DNA from: Clostridia bacterium
GTDB lineage: Bacteria > Bacillota > Clostridia > Oscillospirales > RGIG577
DNA length: 64,000 nucleotides
Direction of reading: 5' to 3'
NCBI GenBank assembly: GCA_017513095.1
Contig: JAFWDJ010000005.1
Span: 1 to 64,000 of the forward strand
Part shown: positions 48,315 to 62,089 of the stretch, piece by piece
Position numbering within the stretch: the stretch's first letter is position 1
How the letters are laid out: each line of letters opens with the position of its first letter
Program-made: the position numbers and the translations under genes
Notes under the pieces: model-generated
What the model was told of the DNA's origin: nothing
What the model saw: only the letters and a program-made list of their open reading frames with translations
The model's database searches: none

Positions 48315-48435
48315 GTTTATTGAGGCCGCCCAAAAAGGGCCGGACCGCCGAAAAAAATAAATAAAAGAAGTGAAAAACATGTGCGGATTTTTTGAAAGAC
48401 AAATATTTCTGCATACCGTTTCAAAACAACTTTTG

Positions 48436-48464
48436 CGCCGTAACCATGAAGGTTACGGCGTTTT
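48436..48464 (+). terminator. Terminator of the hom-thrB-lysC run
   Basis: CGCCGTAACC and GGTTACGGCG with an ATGAA loop, then TTTT; 120 nt after the lysC stop. Confidence 0.8.
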
Positions 48465-48512
48465 CGGCTATTGCCGATTGACTCACTGCCGTATACCGAT
48501 ACGCCCAATCCA

Positions 48513-48544
48513 CCCCAAAAAATCCGCGAGCGTATTTTTTGGGG
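48513..48544. other. A/T-cored hairpin
   Basis: A perfect 11-bp stem (CCCCAAAAAAT and complement) with a 10-nt loop CCGCGAGCGT. The T run is inside the stem, so it is symmetric for both strands; it may be a terminator remnant or a small RNA piece. Confidence 0.5.
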
Positions 48545-48752
48545 ACCCTGAGTTCGCCAATCGACAATTCCGGCCTCTTTTTGGACGCCCTTTTAAAACC
48601 CCCCGCTTTTTCGCAAAAAAACGCATGAAAACTGCCGATTTGGGAATAATTTACTTGCATTTTCCTTTGATAAAGCATAAAATATCTGAAAAGAATCTTT
48701 TTGCGCCGATGAGCGCCGAAGGATCGTCTTTAAAGTGGGGGAGGGTATTTGT

Positions 48753-48908
48753 GTGACTGCCAGGAAGTGGCTTATGCGCATCGCGCTGATTGCGTGTCTC
48801 GGGCTTATCACTTTTCTGTTATCGGTTTTTGCAAGCGGAGATACCTTCAGCGGCATATCAGACAAGGTCCGCACGCAGGAGTATTCGGAAAGCGTCGAAG
48901 CGGCATAA
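48753..48908 (+). CDS. Small single-pass membrane protein (51 aa)
   Basis: A 51-residue frame from GTG: MTARKWLMRIALIACLGLIT begins with a basic end followed by a hydrophobic helix (about 9-27), then a polar tail (SGDTFSGISDKVRTQEYSES). GGGGGAGGG lies 7-8 nt before the start, and a strong terminator follows 20 nt after the stop. Those signals, rather than homology, support it; it could be a secreted peptide or a membrane protein. It stands just before lon. Confidence 0.6.
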   Translation: MTARKWLMRIALIACLGLITFLLSVFASGDTFSGISDKVRTQEYSESVEAA

Positions 48909-52111: not shown

Positions 52112-53378
52112 GGACAACTGCCTCTATATAGGCGGCGCGAATACCGTGGAGCTTGCAAAAGAGTACGGTACGCCGCTTTATGTGATGGATGAGGACATGA
52201 TAAGAGAGACGTGCCGCGAATTCAAGCGCGCGATATACGACGGAGTCGGCGAGAACGGACTTGTGCTCTACGCAAGCAAGGCGTTTTCATGCCGCGCGAT
52301 GTACCGCCTTGTGCGGGAGGAGGGGCTCGGAATAGACGTCGTGTCGGGCGGCGAGCTTTATACGGCGATGAAGGAGAACTTCCCGCCCGAAAAGATATAC
52401 TTCCACGGCAACAACAAGACGGCGGATGAAATAGAGCTTGCGCTCTCATACGGCGTGGGACGCTTCGCCGTGGACAATAAAGAGGAGCTGTTTCTTTTAA
52501 ACGAGCTTTCCGTAAAGCGCGGCGTACGCGCGAAGATATCGTTTCGCATAAAGCCCGGCATAGACGCGCACACGTTCGACGCGGTCATGACGGGGCAGAT
52601 AGACTCTAAATTCGGCGTCGCGCTCGAGAACGGCGAGGCGTTTGAAATAATGAAGACGGCGGCCGCGCTTCCCGGCATCGAGGTAGTGGGCGTTCACTGT
52701 CACATAGGCTCGCAGATATTCACGACGGAGCCGTTCTTCGGCGCGGTCGACGTGATGGTCGACTTTATCGCGCGCCTTCGCCGCGAGCTTTCGATTGATA
52801 TACGCGAGCTTAACTTAGGCGGCGGATACGGCATAAAGTATACCGAGGAGGACAAGCCCATAGCGCCCGCGGAAATGTTCTCGAAGGTGCTTTCGCATCT
52901 TAAAGAAAAGTGCGAAAAAACGGGCGAGCCCGTGCCGCGCGTTTTGATCGAGCCGGGACGCTCCATCGTTGCGGCGGCGGGCGTGACGCTTTACACCGTC
53001 GGCTCCGTAAAAACGATAAAGGACGTGCGCACCTACGTTTCCGTAGACGGCGGCATGACCGACAACCCGCGCTACGCGCTCTACGAATCGCGTTACACGG
53101 CGACTGTCGCGAACCGCGCGTCCGAGCCGCAGAGCGAGACGATAACGCTTGCGGGACGCTGCTGCGAAAGCGGCGACCTCATCGGAAAGGATATGCCGCT
53201 TCAGAAGACTAAGGCGGGCGACATACTCGCCGTATTCTCGACCGGCGCGTACAATTATTCGATGGCGTCTAATTACAACCGCGTGCCGCGCGCCGCGACC
53301 GTATTCGTAAGCGGCGGCAAAAGCCGCGAGGTCATCCGCCGCGAAAGCTACGAGGATATTATAAGAAATGACCTGTAA
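52086..53378 (+). CDS. lysA: Diaminopimelate decarboxylase
   Basis: 430 residues, PLP-dependent fold III. The PLP lysine is in LYASKAFSCRA (near 57), HCHIGSQI and GGGYGIKYT bind substrate and phosphate, and CCESGDLIGKD is the active-site cysteine segment near the end. It makes lysine from meso-diaminopimelate. The ATG at 52086 has GGAGGA and lies inside the 3' end of engB, so translation is coupled. It is away from lysC, and no lysine riboswitch precedes it. Confidence 0.95.
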   Translation: MLYPNQTIKDNCLYIGGANTVELAKEYGTPLYVMDEDMIRETCREFKRAIYDGVGENGLVLYASKAFSCRAMYRLVREEGLGIDVVSGGELYTAMKENFPPEKIYFHGNNKTADEIELALSYGVGRFAVDNKEELFLLNELSVKRGVRAKISFRIKPGIDAHTFDAVMTGQIDSKFGVALENGEAFEIMKTAAALPGIEVVGVHCHIGSQIFTTEPFFGAVDVMVDFIARLRRELSIDIRELNLGGGYGIKYTEEDKPIAPAEMFSKVLSHLKEKCEKTGEPVPRVLIEPGRSIVAAAGVTLYTVGSVKTIKDVRTYVSVDGGMTDNPRYALYESRYTATVANRASEPQSETITLAGRCCESGDLIGKDMPLQKTKAGDILAVFSTGAYNYSMASNYNRVPRAATVFVSGGKSREVIRRESYEDIIRNDL

Positions 53379-53417
53379 TAAGGCTTAAAAAAGCCCGACG
53401 GAAACGTCGGGCTTTTT
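53377..53417 (+). terminator. Terminator of lysA; first copy of a 41-bp duplicated terminator
   Basis: AAAAAAGCCCGACG, GAAA loop and complement, then T6. The 41-bp segment is identical to 58480-58520, including the AATAAGGCTT lead-in. Confidence 0.95.
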
Positions 53418-53436
53418 TGCGTTCGGGGGAGAATGA

Positions 53437-53460
53437 GGGGAAAAAGCATTCTTTTTCCCT
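53437..53460. other. Hairpin in the leader region of the 1617-residue gene
   Basis: GGGAAAAAG and CTTTTTCCC with a CATT loop. Lies 20 nt after the lysA terminator; it may be a further terminator or protect the transcript. Confidence 0.5.
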
Positions 53461-53554
53461 TCCGCGTATTGAATAAGCTTCGGAGGTATGATAAACTAAG
53501 ATTTATAATAGTGCATTATAAACAACGTGTTTTCTAAAGGGATGAGAAAAGTAT

Positions 53555-53602
53555 ACTTTTTCACCAATCTTCGGACGAAAGACGTCCGTATCCGGTGAAA
53601 AG
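53555..53602 (+). promoter_or_regulatory. Structured leader of the 1617-residue surface protein gene
   Basis: An outer stem (TTTTCACC with GGTGAAAA) encloses an inner hairpin (CGGACG, AAAGA loop, CGTCCG) with unpaired AATCTT and TATCC on the two sides. It ends 20 nt before the start codon, just ahead of the ribosome site GAAAGGAAGG. I do not recognise a known riboswitch; the layout suggests a translational control element. A TATAAT at 53504 lacks a partner -35. Confidence 0.45.
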
Positions 53603-53623
53603 AGCGAAGAAAGGAAGGGTTAT

Positions 53624-56600
53624 ATGAAAAAGAAGCTTTTAAGCCTCATCGTGGCGCTGTGTATGGCAGTCACGCTGCTTCCGGCGACGGGCCTTGCGGA
53701 GGCTGTTGCGACCATCGAGGGCACGGTCAACGCGAGCGACTGCCCCGAGGGCGATATCATGCTCACGGACGACACGACGCTCGTTATGGACCGGGATATT
53801 ACGCTTCGCTCCATCCGCGGCAATTACAATCTTACGATAAAGGATAAGGGCGGCCACACGCTTACGATAAGAATGCCCACCGCCGAGAACGTCATCACGG
53901 CGAACCCCTCGGGCCACGCCGTTTCCGTAAAAAGCCTCACCTGCGACGCGAAGCTTGATATCCTGTCGCGCAAGGACGGCTTGAACATCGACGGCGACAT
54001 AAACTTCACGGGCGGCAGCCTCGCCGTAACGTCGAAGGACGGCGACGCCGTATATTCCCGAAACGGCAGCATCTCCCTTACGGGCACGACGATGCTGACG
54101 GCGGGCGGAAGCTCAATAAGCGCGCCCAAGGGCACGGTGAAATATAACGGCTCGTACCTTCTCGCGCAGACGACGGGCCAGAGCGCCTTCTGTATCGTCG
54201 GCCAGACCGTAAATCTTTACGGCGGCACGATAACCGCTTCCTCGACCGCGAACTGCATCGTATCGAACGGCTCGGGCGGCATTACCTTAAAGGGCAAGAT
54301 AACGGCGTCCGCCGGTACCGACTACGGCGCGGTAATAAACGCGCGCGGCAACGGCGGGATACGCATTCTTGACGGCGCGGACATAACGGCCGACGGCGTG
54401 GGCTACGGCCTCTATGCCGGCACGTCCGTAAACATGACGGGCGACGGAACGCTGAACGCGAAGGGCAAAAACAAGAACGCCGTTTACTCCCGTTACGGAA
54501 GCATCACGTTAAAGGGCGACATCACTGCGTCGTCAAAGGAGCAGGCGATCTATGCCCCCGAAGGCGAAATAAACGTGACCGGCTCTCTTAACGCGGAGAA
54601 CAGCAGCATGGACTACTGCTGCATCCGGGCGAGGAACGTGAGTATTCGCGGCGGCAAGGGCGATACCGTTACCGTAAAGGGCGGGGCGGGCGCCATAGTG
54701 GCCGACGGAAATATGAATCTCGCGGGAGCGATCTCCGCCACCGCATCCAACACCGGCTGGAAGAGCAGCGTTATAAGCACCAACAGCGGAGGCAATCTCA
54801 CCGTCGAGGGCGGAACGCTCACGCTGAGCGGCAACGGCTTCGGCATCTCCTCGGACGGTGACGTAAGTATGTCGGGAGACGCCGCGCTGAACATTACCGC
54901 AAGAAAAGGCGTCCTTGCCGACGGCAGCTTTAACAAAAAAAGCACCGGTTCCATGCACATCCACGCGACGACCGGCACGGCACTCGAGGCGGACGGCATA
55001 ATAATTGACGGCGGCTCCGACAATACCGTGGTGAGCGAGGACAGCTACGGTATCATTACGGACGGAGACGTCGCGATCCGCGACTGCATCCTTCACGTGA
55101 CGTCCTTTTTCAACGCCATAAAGGGAGCCTCTCTCGTAACGGAGGGAAATCTTACGGAAGTTTACGCGGAGTCCACCGTTGCGGACGAAAAGGAAATGGG
55201 CACATTTCACAACGACAAGACATTCACCGTGACCGATTCGCACAGCGCCATCTTTATATCCGGCGATATGCGCGCAGATGCGGGCGGGATCACCAGCGGC
55301 CTTTCCAAGTGCTGCTACGGTATCCGGGTCGGCGGAGATCTGTCCGTCGGAGGGCCGCTTCGCGCCCGGATAGAACGTATTGCGGGCTATCCGCAGATCA
55401 GGTACGGACTTGACGTGAAGGGCAACATCACTATCACCGACGAGCTGTTATACTTCGGTGCGAATATGCCGATGCCTAAATATGCGGGGAGAATCTTTAA
55501 AGTGGAGGTCTGGATTGAAGACGGCAAGCTGACAATGAATCCGAATACCACATATAAGGACCTTACAATCAAATGGAAGCCTCCGATCAATCAAGGTATC
55601 CGTCTGACCGTTGAGAAGACGGTCGTGAACGTCGGGGATTGGATACGGGTTAATATAGACGCCCCCGACTGGCAGGATGAGGAGGACGGCAGCACCTGGT
55701 ACATACAAAGCGGACGGCTCCATTTCTGGTGGGAATGCTCGGAAGACGGCCAAAACTGGCAGTTTTACGAACCGGAGGAGACCTACGGCGTTAATATTAT
55801 CCAGACCGCGCAGGACTATGACGCCGGGAAGATCCTTCGGCTTGGTGTCGAGCAATATCTCCATCATGGCGTGATTTATTCCGATATAATTAAGGTCGCA
55901 GGCACCGAACCCCTCACCGGCTCCATCGTCTTCACCTCCGGAGCAAAGCTGGGCGAAAGCTTAACAACGGCACGGCTGGGCATGTTGAAGACAATGGAGG
56001 ATTCCGGCGTCAAGATTCAGTACACGTGGCAATGGTCCGACGACGGAGTGACCGGATGGGGCCATGATTTACCAACGCTGACGGCGTACAGAACCATCAA
56101 CGAATATGATTTAGGTAAATATCTAAGGGTCGTTGCCACGGCGGAGGGCTTTACCGGCGCTGTCGTGTCTCCGGCGAAGTACGTAAGCAAGGTCCCCGCC
56201 AACGACGATAACCTTGCCATGTCGTCACTTACGTACGCCGACGGCGTCATCACCGTCACAAGGGCCTTTACAAATCAGGAGTACGTCGCGACTATGTCCG
56301 CTTCCCCGCCCGGCGAAAACGAGTGGAGCGCCGCCGTATCTCCCGACGCAACGGGCGCGCTTAAGATACCCGTAAGCGGCAGCTATCTTAATCAGTCCGT
56401 TTTCGTCCACACCCGCATAAAGGAGACGGATGCGGCCCTGCCCGGCACCCGTGATAAATACGGCGTCATCTATACGGGAAAGGGCGAGTACCTTGCGGGA
56501 ATTACCCTCAAAAATTCCTCCGGCGCCCCCGTGAGCGCGGAGAAGTCCAAGGTGGGCAGGATAGTTGCCGTAACCGTCGCGCCCATGCCTGAGGACTATC

Positions 56601-58477
56601 CCTATAACAAGTGGAAAGAAGATACAGTGAACTGGTACGTAACCAACAACAAAGACTATCCCGGCGCCGTGGAGCTTTATTCCGACAAGGACTGCACCGT
56701 CCCCCTCCAGCGTGACGGGTACGGCGTTATAATGCCTACCACCCAGTACACAGTATACTATAAGGCGTCGGGCTGGACGCAGGACGTCACCATCGGCGCG
56801 GAAAAGACGATCGGCTATAACAGCGTCGTAAGCGCCCGCATGACGCTGGACGTTTGCAGCGAAAACGACCTGTATATCTTAAAGAGCATGTATTTTGAGG
56901 ACCTCGAAGCCTTCCCCGGCGACGAGATAACCACCGCGTTCGTAACGAAGCCGGAGAAAGCATATCTTGGCGAACTTACGTTCTCGCCCGACAATACCAA
57001 TCCCGCAGGCGAGCTTGAATTTAGCGTTGATACGGCATCGAAGACGCTGACCGTCACCGTCCCCGAGGACGCAGAGACGGGACGCTACGTCTACTACTAC
57101 CTTATAGACGGCGTAAGACCCTATAACGGGACGTTCGTCGTAATAAACGTCCGTGAAAAGACGGCGACCGTAAGCTTCAGCGCGGGCGATCCCGGCGCAC
57201 AGGAGGCCGAGGCCGATATGGCGAGCCTTGCGGAGTCCCAGATGGCGCCGCAAAAGGTGGAGCTCGGCGCGCAGTACATCCTTCCCGAGAACGGCTTTGA
57301 TGCGCCTCCCGGATACGAGTTCGACGGCTGGAGCGAGGGCGACCCCGGCGACGGCATGAACGTGACCGAGGACGTGACCGTTACGGCCCGGTGGAAGGAG
57401 CACGTACACTCGATGATTCATGTAGACGGGTATGATGCCGAATGCACGACGCCCGGCATGATGGAGCACTGGTACTGCGAGACCTGCGGAAAGCTATACG
57501 GCGACGAGAACGGCTTGTATGGCGAATGGGCCGACCCGGCCATGTATATGATCCCCGCTCACGGCCACAATACCGAGGGCGCGGAGTGGGAAAAGCAAAA
57601 CGAGGTCGAGCCCACCTGCACCGAGGACGGCGGCTATGACATGGTGCTCTGCTGCACGATATGCGGCGAGGTAATAAACAGCGTTCACACGACCGTAGCG
57701 TGCCCGGGCAGCCACACCATAGGCGAGGCGGTCATGGAGGACGTTCACGAGGCCACCTGCACCGAGGACGGGTATTATACCGAGGTACACTACTGCGAGG
57801 TATGCGGCGAGGAACAAAGCCGCGAAAAACATACGATAGACATGCTCCCGCACGATCTTGTGCATTATGAGGAAGTGCCCGCTGCCTGCACCGAGGACGG
57901 AAACCCCGAATTCTGGGAGTGCGACTCTTGCGGAGCCTTCTTCTCGGACGAGAACGGCTTAAACGAGATTACGGACCCGCACGACATCGTTTTAGAGGCG
58001 ACGGGCCATGTCTGGGGCAAGCCCTCCTATAAGTGGTCGGCGGACAATTCGAGCGTTACGGCGACCGTCAAATGCACGAACGATCCGAGCCACACCGAGA
58101 GCGAAACGGTTGAAACAAGCTACGAAATAACCGTGCCGCCCACGCTTAAAACGACGGGCACGGGCGTATATACGGCGGAGTTTGAGGGCGCGGCCTTCAC
58201 GACGCAGACGAAGGAGGTCGAGATTCCGAAGATTACGGGTCCCTCCGTTATCGGCGAGGTGACCGGCGCGGGCAAGCTCGGCTATACCATTGAAAAGGCG
58301 CCCGAGGGCGCGATACTCATCGCCGTCCGCTATGACAACGGACGCACGAGCGCGACCCGCGTTATCGCCGCCGAAAACGGCACGGGAACAATTACGCTCG
58401 GCGGAAGCGGCGACAAGTACAAGCTTCTTCTGCTCGACAGCAGCCACCGCCCGCTGTGCGCTGCATGGAAAAACTAA
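53624..58477 (+). CDS. Large beta-helix surface protein with InlB-type and CxxC modules
   Basis: 1617 residues. A signal peptide (LLSLIVALCMAVTLLPATGLA) is followed by a long parallel beta-helix region (about 30-640) of repeated short strands (GSISLTGTTMLTAGG, KGDITASSKEQAIYAPEG), then beta-sandwich units with YTWQWSDDG (about 650-880), further Ig-like stretches, an InlB-type unit (PPGYEFDGWSEGDPG..VTARW, near 1225-1260), and four CxxC modules with the pair at about 1285, 1344, 1391 and 1433, each in CTEDG..CxxCG context, perhaps metal or disulfide linked. It has no LPXTG or SLH anchor. Probably a secreted or wall-associated adhesin or glycan-binding protein; the ligand is unknown. Identical terminators lie on both sides. 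Confidence 0.82.
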   Translation: MKKKLLSLIVALCMAVTLLPATGLAEAVATIEGTVNASDCPEGDIMLTDDTTLVMDRDITLRSIRGNYNLTIKDKGGHTLTIRMPTAENVITANPSGHAVSVKSLTCDAKLDILSRKDGLNIDGDINFTGGSLAVTSKDGDAVYSRNGSISLTGTTMLTAGGSSISAPKGTVKYNGSYLLAQTTGQSAFCIVGQTVNLYGGTITASSTANCIVSNGSGGITLKGKITASAGTDYGAVINARGNGGIRILDGADITADGVGYGLYAGTSVNMTGDGTLNAKGKNKNAVYSRYGSITLKGDITASSKEQAIYAPEGEINVTGSLNAENSSMDYCCIRARNVSIRGGKGDTVTVKGGAGAIVADGNMNLAGAISATASNTGWKSSVISTNSGGNLTVEGGTLTLSGNGFGISSDGDVSMSGDAALNITARKGVLADGSFNKKSTGSMHIHATTGTALEADGIIIDGGSDNTVVSEDSYGIITDGDVAIRDCILHVTSFFNAIKGASLVTEGNLTEVYAESTVADEKEMGTFHNDKTFTVTDSHSAIFISGDMRADAGGITSGLSKCCYGIRVGGDLSVGGPLRARIERIAGYPQIRYGLDVKGNITITDELLYFGANMPMPKYAGRIFKVEVWIEDGKLTMNPNTTYKDLTIKWKPPINQGIRLTVEKTVVNVGDWIRVNIDAPDWQDEEDGSTWYIQSGRLHFWWECSEDGQNWQFYEPEETYGVNIIQTAQDYDAGKILRLGVEQYLHHGVIYSDIIKVAGTEPLTGSIVFTSGAKLGESLTTARLGMLKTMEDSGVKIQYTWQWSDDGVTGWGHDLPTLTAYRTINEYDLGKYLRVVATAEGFTGAVVSPAKYVSKVPANDDNLAMSSLTYADGVITVTRAFTNQEYVATMSASPPGENEWSAAVSPDATGALKIPVSGSYLNQSVFVHTRIKETDAALPGTRDKYGVIYTGKGEYLAGITLKNSSGAPVSAEKSKVGRIVAVTVAPMPEDYPYNKWKEDTVNWYVTNNKDYPGAVELYSDKDCTVPLQRDGYGVIMPTTQYTVYYKASGWTQDVTIGAEKTIGYNSVVSARMTLDVCSENDLYILKSMYFEDLEAFPGDEITTAFVTKPEKAYLGELTFSPDNTNPAGELEFSVDTASKTLTVTVPEDAETGRYVYYYLIDGVRPYNGTFVVINVREKTATVSFSAGDPGAQEAEADMASLAESQMAPQKVELGAQYILPENGFDAPPGYEFDGWSEGDPGDGMNVTEDVTVTARWKEHVHSMIHVDGYDAECTTPGMMEHWYCETCGKLYGDENGLYGEWADPAMYMIPAHGHNTEGAEWEKQNEVEPTCTEDGGYDMVLCCTICGEVINSVHTTVACPGSHTIGEAVMEDVHEATCTEDGYYTEVHYCEVCGEEQSREKHTIDMLPHDLVHYEEVPAACTEDGNPEFWECDSCGAFFSDENGLNEITDPHDIVLEATGHVWGKPSYKWSADNSSVTATVKCTNDPSHTESETVETSYEITVPPTLKTTGTGVYTAEFEGAAFTTQTKEVEIPKITGPSVIGEVTGAGKLGYTIEKAPEGAILIAVRYDNGRTSATRVIAAENGTGTITLGGSGDKYKLLLLDSSHRPLCAAWKN

Positions 58478-58479
58478 AG

Positions 58480-58520
58480 AATAAGGCTTAAAAAAGCCCG
58501 ACGGAAACGTCGGGCTTTTT
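58480..58520 (+). terminator. Terminator of the 1617-residue gene; second copy of the 41-bp duplicated terminator
   Basis: Identical over 41 bp to 53377-53417, starting three bases after the stop codon. Differs only after the T tract. Confidence 0.95.
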
Positions 58521-58585
58521 GTGTTTCCCCCGAAAATCCCCCCCCCTACGGAACGCACAGAGGCTTCGGCGCGTCATAATTTTTA

Positions 58586-58614
58586 TTGAAGTCTTAAAAA
58601 AAGTATGTTATACT
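58586..58614 (+). promoter_or_regulatory. Promoter of the amidase/lectin protein gene
   Basis: TTGAAG (58586-58591), 17-bp spacer, TATACT (58609-58614) with TGT before it (extended -10). Leader about 85 nt, containing CCCCG..CGGGG inverted repeats near 58655-58680. Confidence 0.75.
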
Positions 58615-58705
58615 GTACTATCAATAAAAATATACTATTCTTGCCGCCGTTTGGCCCCGAAAATTCGTAAAACGGGGCTTGTGCGGCCCGAAAAGGGAAA
58701 AAACG

Positions 58706-61700
58706 ATGAAAAAACATGTTAAAAATAGAATAAAAGCCGCGGCAGTTTCGGTGCTGGCGTTTTGCACGCTTCTTTTGAGCGTGCCCGCCGCTCCCGCCGC
58801 GCCGACGGCGCAGGCCCTAAACTGCCACGAGACGGCGCAGCTCTGGTTCGGCGACAGCGAGGCGGCGATGCTTGCCGAGGCGGACGAAAACTCGCCCGAG
58901 GGCGCGGCTTACGCATATTTTTGTGAAAGAGAGAGCGACTTTCCCGGCACGGCATCCCTTGCGGAGGACAGCCGTGCGCAGACGAGCGATAAGGTCGGGC
59001 GCGAGCGCGCCGAGCGCATTCGCGGCATCGAAGATTTCGAAGCGCGCGCGAACGTTGCGATCCTCGACGCCGACGTGACGGCCATGATCGACGGCGAGCG
59101 CACCGTATACCGCGACGACGGATTTGTCGAGCTTTACGTTTACGAATGGACGTTCTACGATTACGACGACCTAAGCGACGGCGCCGGAGGAAGCGACGTC
59201 GCGGGTCACGGCACGCATCACAAGCTCACGCTTGCGCCCGCGGACGCGGGATACGAGATAATCTCCGACGAATACGACGAAAGCGACCTCTACGGCGTAA
59301 ACACCGCAGGCGGCGCGTCCGCGCAAGGCGAAGACGACGCGGCTTCCGATGAATACGTCGGCGAAGAGACGGCCGTGCTTCAAAGCACGAATTATTATGC
59401 GGCCTACGACCCCGACAAGGCCGTCGCCTACGCCGACAAATACGTCTACAACGGCGCGACCTCCTCGGGCAAGCTTTACGAAAACTATTACAACAGCGCG
59501 TACGCCAATTTCAACGACGTCGGCGGCGACTGCGCAAATTACACGTCCCAGTGCATCTACGCGGGCGGAATGCCTCAGGTGAAGGGCGCGGCGTACGGCA
59601 CGGACTGCTGGTTCTACGTTTCGTCGTCGAACAGAAGCGCGACGTGGACGAGCGCCTCGCGCCTCTGCGCGTGGATGGGCGACAACCGCGGCGTTCTCTG
59701 CACGGCGAACAACTCGAATATATATAAGGGAAGCCCGTGCTTCCACAGCAATAAAAGCCACGCTACGATATGCGTGGGCAAGAACAGCGCGGGCACGCAC
59801 GTTATAAATTCGCACAACTACGACCGTTACCACGTCGTATGGAGCTATATAAGCGGCACGGTGTACACAGTCCGGCTTACGCCGCGCGACGATTATAAAC
59901 CGTCGTCGCAGCCTGCGCCGCAGCCCGCTCATACGACGCATACGAAGGGCGCGTTCCAATATTACACGGCGGCGCATCCGCATTACAACTACTATAAATG
60001 CTCCGTATGCGGCGAAATTTTCACCGACGGCACGACGACGAAGGTCTCCTCCTGCACGCAGTGCTATCCGGTGACGGAGACGACGAAAACAGGCTACGCG
60101 GCCGGAGGCACACAGAGTGTGGATATAAACAGAACGCCGTCCTCGGGAAGCAAGATAGGCTCGATCCCCGAGGGCGCACCCTGCACCGTATACCCCGATA
60201 AAACGATAAGCGGCTGGTACTATGTCGAGTACCGCGGTATAAGCGGCTACGCATACAGCGGATTTATTTTGTTCACGCCGCCGCCCCCCTCGGGCGTTTG
60301 GCTGAAAATCGACAAGACCGAGCTTGCCGCGGGCGAAAAGCTTACGTTCACCTACGGCGCGAACAACGTCACGGGCTACGTTATGGGCATCGACCGCGTC
60401 GGGGAGGGCAGGATAGTCACGCCGTCGCTCGGCCTTGAAGCGTCGTACACGCTCGCATTTAACGAGCCGGGCACGTATACGGCATACGTTACGGCGTACA
60501 ATACGGCGGGCAGCACCGAAAGCGCCCGCGTCACGTTTGAGGTCTGCGACCCCGTGCCCGCGGTACCCGTGCCGAAGGCCGACCGCGATATATTTTTCGC
60601 GGGCGAGAGCGTGACGCTGTCGTGGCCCGCCGCCGAAAACGCCGCGAAGTACGAATACGCCGTGGGCGAGTATCCCGCGGAGCTTATATGCGAGTCGCCC
60701 GGACGAAGCGGCGCCGTGGCGGGCTTGAGCGTAAGCTTAAGCGGCCTTTCGTGCGGCGAATATACGGCGTACGTGCGCTCCGTAAACGCCATCGGCACGA
60801 AGAGCGAATACAGCGCCGCGGTGACGTTTACGGTGAGCGAACGGGAGCTTTCGCCCGTGAAAACGGCCGAGGCGAACGGGCGAGTGTACGAGCTATACGA
60901 CTGCGAAACGTCGTGGACGTTCGCGCGGAGATTGTGCGAACAGATGGGAGGCCGCCTTGCGTGCGTGACCGACGAGCGCGAGAACGCGCTTCTTACGGCG
61001 CTTGCCGCCTCGGGCACGAAGGCGAAATACTTCATAGGCGCGTCGAACGTTTCGCCGTCCGATTATAACGAGAAGGGCGGTGCGTACGCGTGGGAGTCGG
61101 GCGAGGCGTTCTCGTACTCCGCGTGGGCCGACGGGGAGCCCTTAAACGTCGGAAGCGGCGTGTGGTGCAGGCATTTTGCGGCTCTGGACGCATCTTCGGG
61201 AAAGTGGCGAAGCGTATACAATACCGATAAGAACGGCTCGGGCTTCATCCTCGAACGCGAGGCCGACGCGAAGCCCGTGAGTATTGCTTCGATGAAATAC
61301 GACGGCGGCGCCGTCACGATACTTTGGAACGCGGCGGACGGCGCGGACGGCTACGCCGTATACCGTAAGGCGGACGGCGGCGAATGGACGTGCATTTGCG
61401 AGCTTGCCGATACGTCGTACACCGACGCGGACGTGACGGCGGGCGGGACGTATACCTACGCCGTGCGCTCCCGCGCGAACGGAAAGTACAGCGAAGGATA
61501 CGATGAGACGGCGCAAAGCGTTGTACTTTACGCGCCCGGCTTTGCGTTTGACGCCGAAACGGGAACGCTTAACGGCGTGACGGACAAGAGCGCAGAAAAG
61601 GTTATAATCCCCGGATTTATGGGAGAGACCCGCGTGACGGCCATAGGCGCGGGCGCGTTTTCGGGCTGCGCGGCGCTTAAAACGGTATTTGTCCCCGAAG

Positions 61701-62089
61701 GCGTGACGCGGATAGACGAAGGCGCGTTTTCGGGCTGCGCATCGCCTTGCGAGGTGTACTACGAGGGCACGAGGGAGCAGTGGGACGCCCTGGGCGGCGA
61801 AATCCCGAAAGGTACAAAGCTTCTTTTAAATGCCCGCGCGGACGCGGCCACGGGCGAGACGGCCGCGTTCGGCCTTGACGGCGAAAAGCTCACCGTTTAC
61901 GGCGACGTTTCTGCGGACGCGCCTGTATACGCCGCAGTGTACGGCGAAAACGGCAGACTTTTATCGGTAAAAATCATCACCGCGCCCGCTGCGGCGGACG
62001 CGGGCGGCGCGGCGCGGATTCTTTGCATATGGACGGACGCGCGCACCCTTGCGCCGAAATGCGGGAGCGTCGAATTTGACTTGACTTGA
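58706..62089 (+). CDS. Secreted amidase-domain protein with SH3, C-type lectin, FN3 and LRR modules
   Basis: 1127 residues. Signal peptide (AAAVSVLAFCTLLLSVPAAPA); then a putative amidase domain (Amidase_6 type) with the catalytic-looking Cys276 in VGGDCANYTSQC and His352 in KSHATICVG. Next a CSVCGE..CTQC pair (about 430-450), a bacterial SH3-like domain (SIPEGAPCTVYPDKTISGWY), two Ig/FN3-like domains, a C-type lectin domain (SWTFARRLCEQMGGRLACVT to YNTDKNGSGFILE, about 725-850), another FN3 domain and one or two LRR_5 repeats with a YYEGTREQWDAL closer. It may cut peptide cross-links or amides in envelope while bound through its lectin part. The ATG at 58706 has AAAAGGGA; an upstream ATG at 58679 is out of the signal-peptide pattern. 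No anchor motif is seen. Confidence 0.85.
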   Translation: MKKHVKNRIKAAAVSVLAFCTLLLSVPAAPAAPTAQALNCHETAQLWFGDSEAAMLAEADENSPEGAAYAYFCERESDFPGTASLAEDSRAQTSDKVGRERAERIRGIEDFEARANVAILDADVTAMIDGERTVYRDDGFVELYVYEWTFYDYDDLSDGAGGSDVAGHGTHHKLTLAPADAGYEIISDEYDESDLYGVNTAGGASAQGEDDAASDEYVGEETAVLQSTNYYAAYDPDKAVAYADKYVYNGATSSGKLYENYYNSAYANFNDVGGDCANYTSQCIYAGGMPQVKGAAYGTDCWFYVSSSNRSATWTSASRLCAWMGDNRGVLCTANNSNIYKGSPCFHSNKSHATICVGKNSAGTHVINSHNYDRYHVVWSYISGTVYTVRLTPRDDYKPSSQPAPQPAHTTHTKGAFQYYTAAHPHYNYYKCSVCGEIFTDGTTTKVSSCTQCYPVTETTKTGYAAGGTQSVDINRTPSSGSKIGSIPEGAPCTVYPDKTISGWYYVEYRGISGYAYSGFILFTPPPPSGVWLKIDKTELAAGEKLTFTYGANNVTGYVMGIDRVGEGRIVTPSLGLEASYTLAFNEPGTYTAYVTAYNTAGSTESARVTFEVCDPVPAVPVPKADRDIFFAGESVTLSWPAAENAAKYEYAVGEYPAELICESPGRSGAVAGLSVSLSGLSCGEYTAYVRSVNAIGTKSEYSAAVTFTVSERELSPVKTAEANGRVYELYDCETSWTFARRLCEQMGGRLACVTDERENALLTALAASGTKAKYFIGASNVSPSDYNEKGGAYAWESGEAFSYSAWADGEPLNVGSGVWCRHFAALDASSGKWRSVYNTDKNGSGFILEREADAKPVSIASMKYDGGAVTILWNAADGADGYAVYRKADGGEWTCICELADTSYTDADVTAGGTYTYAVRSRANGKYSEGYDETAQSVVLYAPGFAFDAETGTLNGVTDKSAEKVIIPGFMGETRVTAIGAGAFSGCAALKTVFVPEGVTRIDEGAFSGCASPCEVYYEGTREQWDALGGEIPKGTKLLLNARADAATGETAAFGLDGEKLTVYGDVSADAPVYAAVYGENGRLLSVKIITAPAAADAGGAARILCIWTDARTLAPKCGSVEFDLT

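Follow-up and report, generated by a model that had tools for sequence, protein, structure and literature searches.

Variable segments with flanking direct repeats are common in bacteria and known to make strains differ; in one study, 10 to 18% of variable segments were flanked by direct repeats, mostly shorter than 30 bp (PMC2884548, 2010). Other described systems that bear comparison are the att-type duplications made by integrating islands, the repetitive extragenic palindromic (REP) or palindromic unit families, and the gene cassettes of integrons. A literature search on duplicated or identical terminators found no papers. Here, we analyzed the first 64,000 nucleotides (the window) of contig JAFWDJ010000005.1 from an uncultured gut-type Clostridia genome (GCA_017513095.1; 1.99 Mb, an incomplete assembly of 45 contigs). 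In this window, one 41-bp sequence stands twice, once behind lysA and once behind the next gene, which encodes a secreted or surface protein of 1617 residues (Table 1). We read this repeat, with a probability of roughly 0.6, as the scar of a past lineage-specific rearrangement that set the surface-gene block directly behind lysA.

Comparing the two copies, we find that they are identical at 41 of 41 bases in direct orientation, with 5103 bp from start to start. Dinucleotide shuffles of the window produced no such 41-base match. Both copies fold into a 13-14 bp stem with a GAAA loop, an A-lead before it and a T-run after it, with folding energies of -22.6 and -21.8 kcal/mol (z about -5.8). Both thus have the G+C-rich stem-loop and the T-run of an intrinsic terminator, and both lie 3′ of a gene, directly after its stop codon. 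Copy 1 opens with the last two bases of the lysA stop codon TAA, while copy 2 starts two bases past the stop of the surface gene. The T-run is one T longer in copy 1 (six) than in copy 2 (five), showing that the similarity of the copies stops there. The best reading of these features is that both copies now serve as ordinary Rho-independent terminators, insulating lysA, the surface gene and the next gene. The earlier note on this DNA had reported the exact identity and one giant gene between the copies. Both statements hold: the copies are strong intrinsic terminators, and a single long open reading frame (ORF) lies between them.

The sequence is rare. What we say of the whole genome is based on pattern searches and on samples totalling about 690 kb, part of which is congener DNA. 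A pattern search of the genome, allowing up to 3 mismatches in 28 bases, returned the two copies and one weaker, different hairpin; the next-best match to the repeat has 3 mismatches in 28. A 31-base core of the repeat was absent from the 393 other genomes of the order (394 searched). A relaxed 36-base form had no match in the genome_contigs or viral_contigs collections, where records very near this genome may be omitted. The repeat therefore does not recur at many terminators, a recurrence that the earlier note had held up as a counter-argument, and a common terminator reused genome-wide is ruled out by the count of two. The general form AAAAGCC...GGCTTTT occurs at about 20 places in the genome, and the stems of the others are pairwise unlike. 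We also compared 99 oriented terminator-like hairpins from 460 kb of the genome, using 48-base windows that trimmed the 41 bases of the pair to 39. Exact stretches shared between hairpins usually measured 5-8 bases, with a peak at 6; the longest between unrelated hairpins was 14 bases, compared with 39-41 for the repeat pair. The sole outliers among the 99 were the 41-bp pair and one dispersed palindrome family. Shuffles and hairpin comparison together rule out chance identity. On the sequence evidence, the 41-bp pair is a real, local copying event.

Next to the repeat, the gene order of the relatives breaks. The comparison set comprised two congeners (G001 and G002), which makes three species of the family in all, one genome each and all drafts. 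In both congeners, a conserved block of aspartokinase, lon, engB and lysA, with lysA last, is collinear with the window, and the synteny ends precisely with the stop codon of lysA. In the congeners, the next gene comes 12-26 bases behind lysA, with no terminator between, and encodes a 383-amino-acid secreted protein; its terminator and a thiamine pyrophosphate (TPP)-enzyme gene stand after it. Behind lysA in G001 or G002, we found neither the 41-bp terminator nor the 1617-residue gene. The order of lysA and surface gene with both terminators is therefore not fixed in relatives, which was the other objection foreseen in the earlier note. From lysA to the TPP-enzyme gene it is 43.1 kb in this genome versus about 1.2 kb in the congeners. 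The lineage-specific stretch runs from window position 53379 to G000 C16:96523 (53.4-96.5 kb of the contig), and collinearity restarts 123 bp ahead of the TPP-enzyme gene. Sequence from the right part of the 43 kb turns up at several other places in the congener genomes, its genes matching there at about 70-83% nucleotide identity. At least this part is thus rearranged native DNA, and the idea of the whole 43 kb as a foreign island is ruled out for it. A 43-kb difference with parts found elsewhere marks the 3′ side of lysA as a rearrangement point. The duplication or insertion event proposed in the earlier note accordingly stands in part: the synteny break and the unique repeat support it, but it was not a clean 5.1-kb insertion, as the difference is 43.1 kb and no relative carries lysA with one terminator.

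A synteny break at a repeat in an incomplete assembly of 45 contigs could also come from an artefact, in which a draft contig was misjoined at the repeat or two strains were merged. However, 41 bp is below the usual read lengths and final k-mers, and the contig is unbroken for 108.6 kb. Moreover, 3′ of copy 2 the promoter and a gene of 1136 amino acids match the congeners, where this gene too stands behind a surface gene. We regard an artefact as very improbable.

How fast terminators change bears on the age of the copying. At three comparable positions (after aspartokinase, after the TPP-enzyme gene and before the 1136-amino-acid gene), the hairpin of this genome differs from those of the congeners. 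On this contig, three surface genes are nearly identical at the 3′ end of their coding sequences, and their terminators are all different. As terminators differ both between congeners and between paralogs, the 41/41 match, which takes in ten lead-in bases, is best read as copying after the species split; from these few cases, we infer that the copying postdates the separation of the species. The terminators behind the 383-amino-acid gene are one loop base apart in G001 versus G002, with unlike flanks, so a stem alone can persist that long.

The same observations bear on gene conversion between neighbouring, unrelated terminators, with the genes already in place and no 5.1-kb insertion or deletion. 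Conversion or selection would give a repeat such as this one, which spans the terminator alone and ends at its functional limits, from A-lead to T-run. But conversion needs prior similarity, and unrelated terminators here have at most about 14 exact bases in common. Orthologous terminators do not stay alike between congeners, and no homogenisation is seen among neighbouring surface genes of the contig. We consider gene conversion unlikely.

The scar of a rearrangement would have formed as follows. A surface-gene unit would have been placed behind lysA in a lineage-specific rearrangement, and one terminator hairpin would have been copied along with it. A tandem array of leader-gene-terminator units may have lost its first gene by a join at a shared AATAA, leaving the terminator of that gene behind lysA; alternatively, one unit may have been inserted at a terminator, which was duplicated. 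The joining probably went through short homologies, AATAA on the left and the T-run on the right. The AATAA within the TAATAA at the lysA end forms the left edge of copy 1 and is a possible microhomology. At both copies, the left edge AATA(A) appears to be native: TAATAA stands at the lysA end also in G001, and TAAAGAATA behind the surface-gene stop is the same ending as on the gene before the 1136-amino-acid ortholog of G002. These edges and the T-run fit joining at microhomology.

Several points weigh against this scenario. None of the genomes examined holds an intermediate, be it lysA with one terminator or the lost first unit. Either copy could be the original, as both have a short edge that looks native. 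Being short and A+T-rich, the AATAA and T-run homologies may have arisen by chance. Finally, the comparison covers three draft species only, and a one-off gene conversion would look alike.

Table 1 Features around the 41-bp repeat pair, in window coordinates
Feature	Position	Strand	Details
lysA, diaminopimelate decarboxylase, 430 amino acids	52086..53378	+	91-93% amino acid identity to the lysA of the congeners, same order
TAATAA at lysA end	53376..53381	+	Common to G001; blastn homology stops at 53381
Repeat copy 1	53377..53417	+	Intrinsic terminator of lysA; sequence match and fold
Short stretch between terminator T-run and recognisable leader	53419..53436	+	Weakly alignable with paralogous leaders
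Leader and promoter region of surface gene	53437..53623	+	Paralogous to surface-gene leaders of two other contigs, at C20:99.0-99.3 kb and C35:44.9-45.1 kb
Secreted or surface protein, 1617 amino acids	53624..58477	+	ORF with N-terminal signal-like segment
Repeat copy 2	58480..58520	+	Intrinsic terminator of surface gene; sequence match and fold
Promoter and leader of next gene	58548..58702	+	Conserved in G001 and G002
Secreted protein, 1128 amino acids (1136 from upstream TTG)	58703..62089	+	Domains (Amidase_6, C-type lectin, LRR_5) and orthologs

The earlier note had also raised a switchable cassette, in which recombination between the 41-bp repeats releases the surface gene as a circle and can put it back. 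The perfect direct repeats bracket a single surface gene together with its leader, deletion would spare lysA as well as the downstream promoter, neither congener has the gene, and such repeat-flanked variable segments are the common kind noted above (PMC2884548). However, we obtained no positive evidence for switching. The gene is present in one copy, no recombinase gene lies between the repeats, no empty site was seen and the congener locus is not lysA with one terminator. The genome has no additional copy of the repeat beyond the pair, and a 41-bp homology across 5.1 kb is a weak substrate. Scanning thirteen proteins, most of them from the 43 kb (not every small ORF was scanned), we detected no recombinase family. 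A gene switched in and out is possible but unsupported, and we hold it to be improbable. In principle, the 41 bp could allow excision across the 5.1 kb, which would probably be rare and unregulated. It would come as no surprise if some cells lacked the gene, but this would be ordinary variability and not a dedicated switch.

Site-specific integration at the 3′ end of lysA, with the 41 bp as attL and attR and the integrase since lost, is just as improbable in our view. The repeat does lie at a gene 3′ end from the stop codon on, like many att duplications. Elsewhere in the genome (G000 C20:161640-162060, L096), an apparent tRNA 3′ end and terminator recur about 275 bp downstream, resembling an att scar left by an integrated element since lost. 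However, the proteins tested showed no integrase family, and copy 2 lies just 5.1 kb off, well short of the far end of the 43-kb difference. The lysA genes of the congeners end without the would-be attB, a sequence that is also missing from the 393 other genomes of the order that were searched.

The surface gene itself is single-copy in this genome. The N-terminal part of its product gave a borderline match to the Cthe_2159 carbohydrate-binding family (25.2 bits, under the cut-off of 25.8), and its C-terminal domain is also found in further surface proteins of the genus. A search of 58 relatives gave no full-length homolog. A phage or plasmid origin was rejected, the only matches being short ones in the C-terminal third, to two phage records and one plasmid. 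The 1136-amino-acid gene, which follows copy 2, has its orthologs at other places in G001 and G002. These are also preceded by a surface gene and a terminator; the promoter is conserved from 58548, and the hairpin sequences differ. Copy 2 thus occupies the place of a terminator that the congeners have with another sequence. The 1617-residue gene is ruled out as the ortholog of that congener surface gene, whose C-terminal domain is of another type. It follows that all or most of the 1617-residue gene is new at that place.

The leader of the surface gene is not unusually structured, and an Rfam search of leader and repeat gave no match near the gathering threshold. Aligning the three paralogous leaders, we find that the similarity reaches the T-run of the terminator of the upstream gene and does not enter the hairpin. 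The genes upstream of the three leaders look unrelated to one another, and a fourth leader locus (C1) joins its terminator at another point of the leader. Surface-gene units in this genome tend to start right behind the terminator of a resident gene, an observation on three loci that carries no statistic. A bolder proposal builds on the leader homology that ends at the upstream T-run in these three loci: terminators would be the usual exchange points for surface-gene modules, with leader-gene units joined at the T-runs of resident genes and the 41-bp pair as the freshest event, still revertible by excision. We think this quite unlikely. If true, surface-gene units could be added or removed without breaking the transcription of their neighbours.

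Other repeats and exchanges were noticed in the genome. A second common terminator of about 49 bp, 96% identical, stands after different coding sequences at G000 C20:104167-104222 and C35:48909-48965 (L231). Paralogous surface genes lie near both sites; in C20, the surface gene is separated from the terminator by an extra gene. BspA-type leucine-rich-repeat surface genes on one contig (window 1-1852; L079 325-2274 and 2609-8179) have exact stretches of 64-139 bp in common close to their 3′ ends; as these genes are up to 70 kb apart, this points to recent exchange. The dispersed palindrome family, GCCGTAACC-loop-GGTTACGGC with a variable loop, has 17 copies in this genome, 2 in G001 and 0 in G002, and a reversed control pattern had no matches. 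Its copies lie at window 48421-48475, at G000 C20:75314-75367, C20:85271-85324 and C35:52230-52283, and elsewhere; one member forms the hairpin that follows the aspartokinase gene. The family looks like a REP-type element that has expanded in this lineage. Membership of the 41-bp repeat in this family is ruled out by its different sequence. An IS200-type transposase gene has one apparently complete copy (G000 C31:21178-21534, L258) and none in the congeners. As a copier of the hairpin it was rejected: both the 41-mer and the palindrome are missing from its flanks. At G000 C20:41660-50510 (L090), we noted a type III CRISPR-Cas-like locus with several cas-like ORFs (by eye) and an array at about 48326-48830. 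Direct repeats of about 160 bp, holding a terminator and the start region of neighbouring genes, flank this locus, as if it had been recently acquired or duplicated. Finally, L086 8592-11126 encodes an 844-amino-acid protein with microbial PARG, ADP-ribosylglycohydrolase and NADAR domains in one chain.

The repeat pair is a marker of the reshuffling of a large surface-protein repertoire in a gut-type Clostridia lineage. Beginning at the stop codon that ends a conserved biosynthesis operon, even congeneric species differ in their chromosomes. As it stands, this is one case of a known kind of variability, and its interest is modest.

Among the known systems, integron gene cassettes (gene plus attC) likewise have a palindromic element behind the gene and the same element ahead of it. 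Here, in contrast, the element is an ordinary terminator with an A-lead, a GNRA loop and a T-run, the gene has its own leader, and the attC core GTTRRRY, read by eye, is absent from both strands of the 41 bp. The REP families resemble the pair as hairpins copied between intergenic places, and the genome has such a family of its own. Unlike their many intergenic copies, the 41-bp element has two only, which are terminators of adjacent genes and of another sequence. An att-type duplication by an integrating island would also give a direct repeat from a gene stop codon on, terminator included. However, the repeat here lies inside the lineage-specific region and does not bound it: the region spans 53.4-96.5 kb, copy 2 is at 58.5 kb and there is no third copy. 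Between the repeats, only the 1617-residue gene was found and no integrase or recombinase gene, and the congeners have no attB. The variable segments with flanking direct repeats (PMC2884548) differ from this locus in that the repeat here is a full intrinsic terminator, the congeners are other species without an empty site, and the real difference is 43 kb. What the locus shares with them is a segment that is absent at the locus in relatives and is bounded at its ends by direct repeats, which agree here at 41 of 41 bases.

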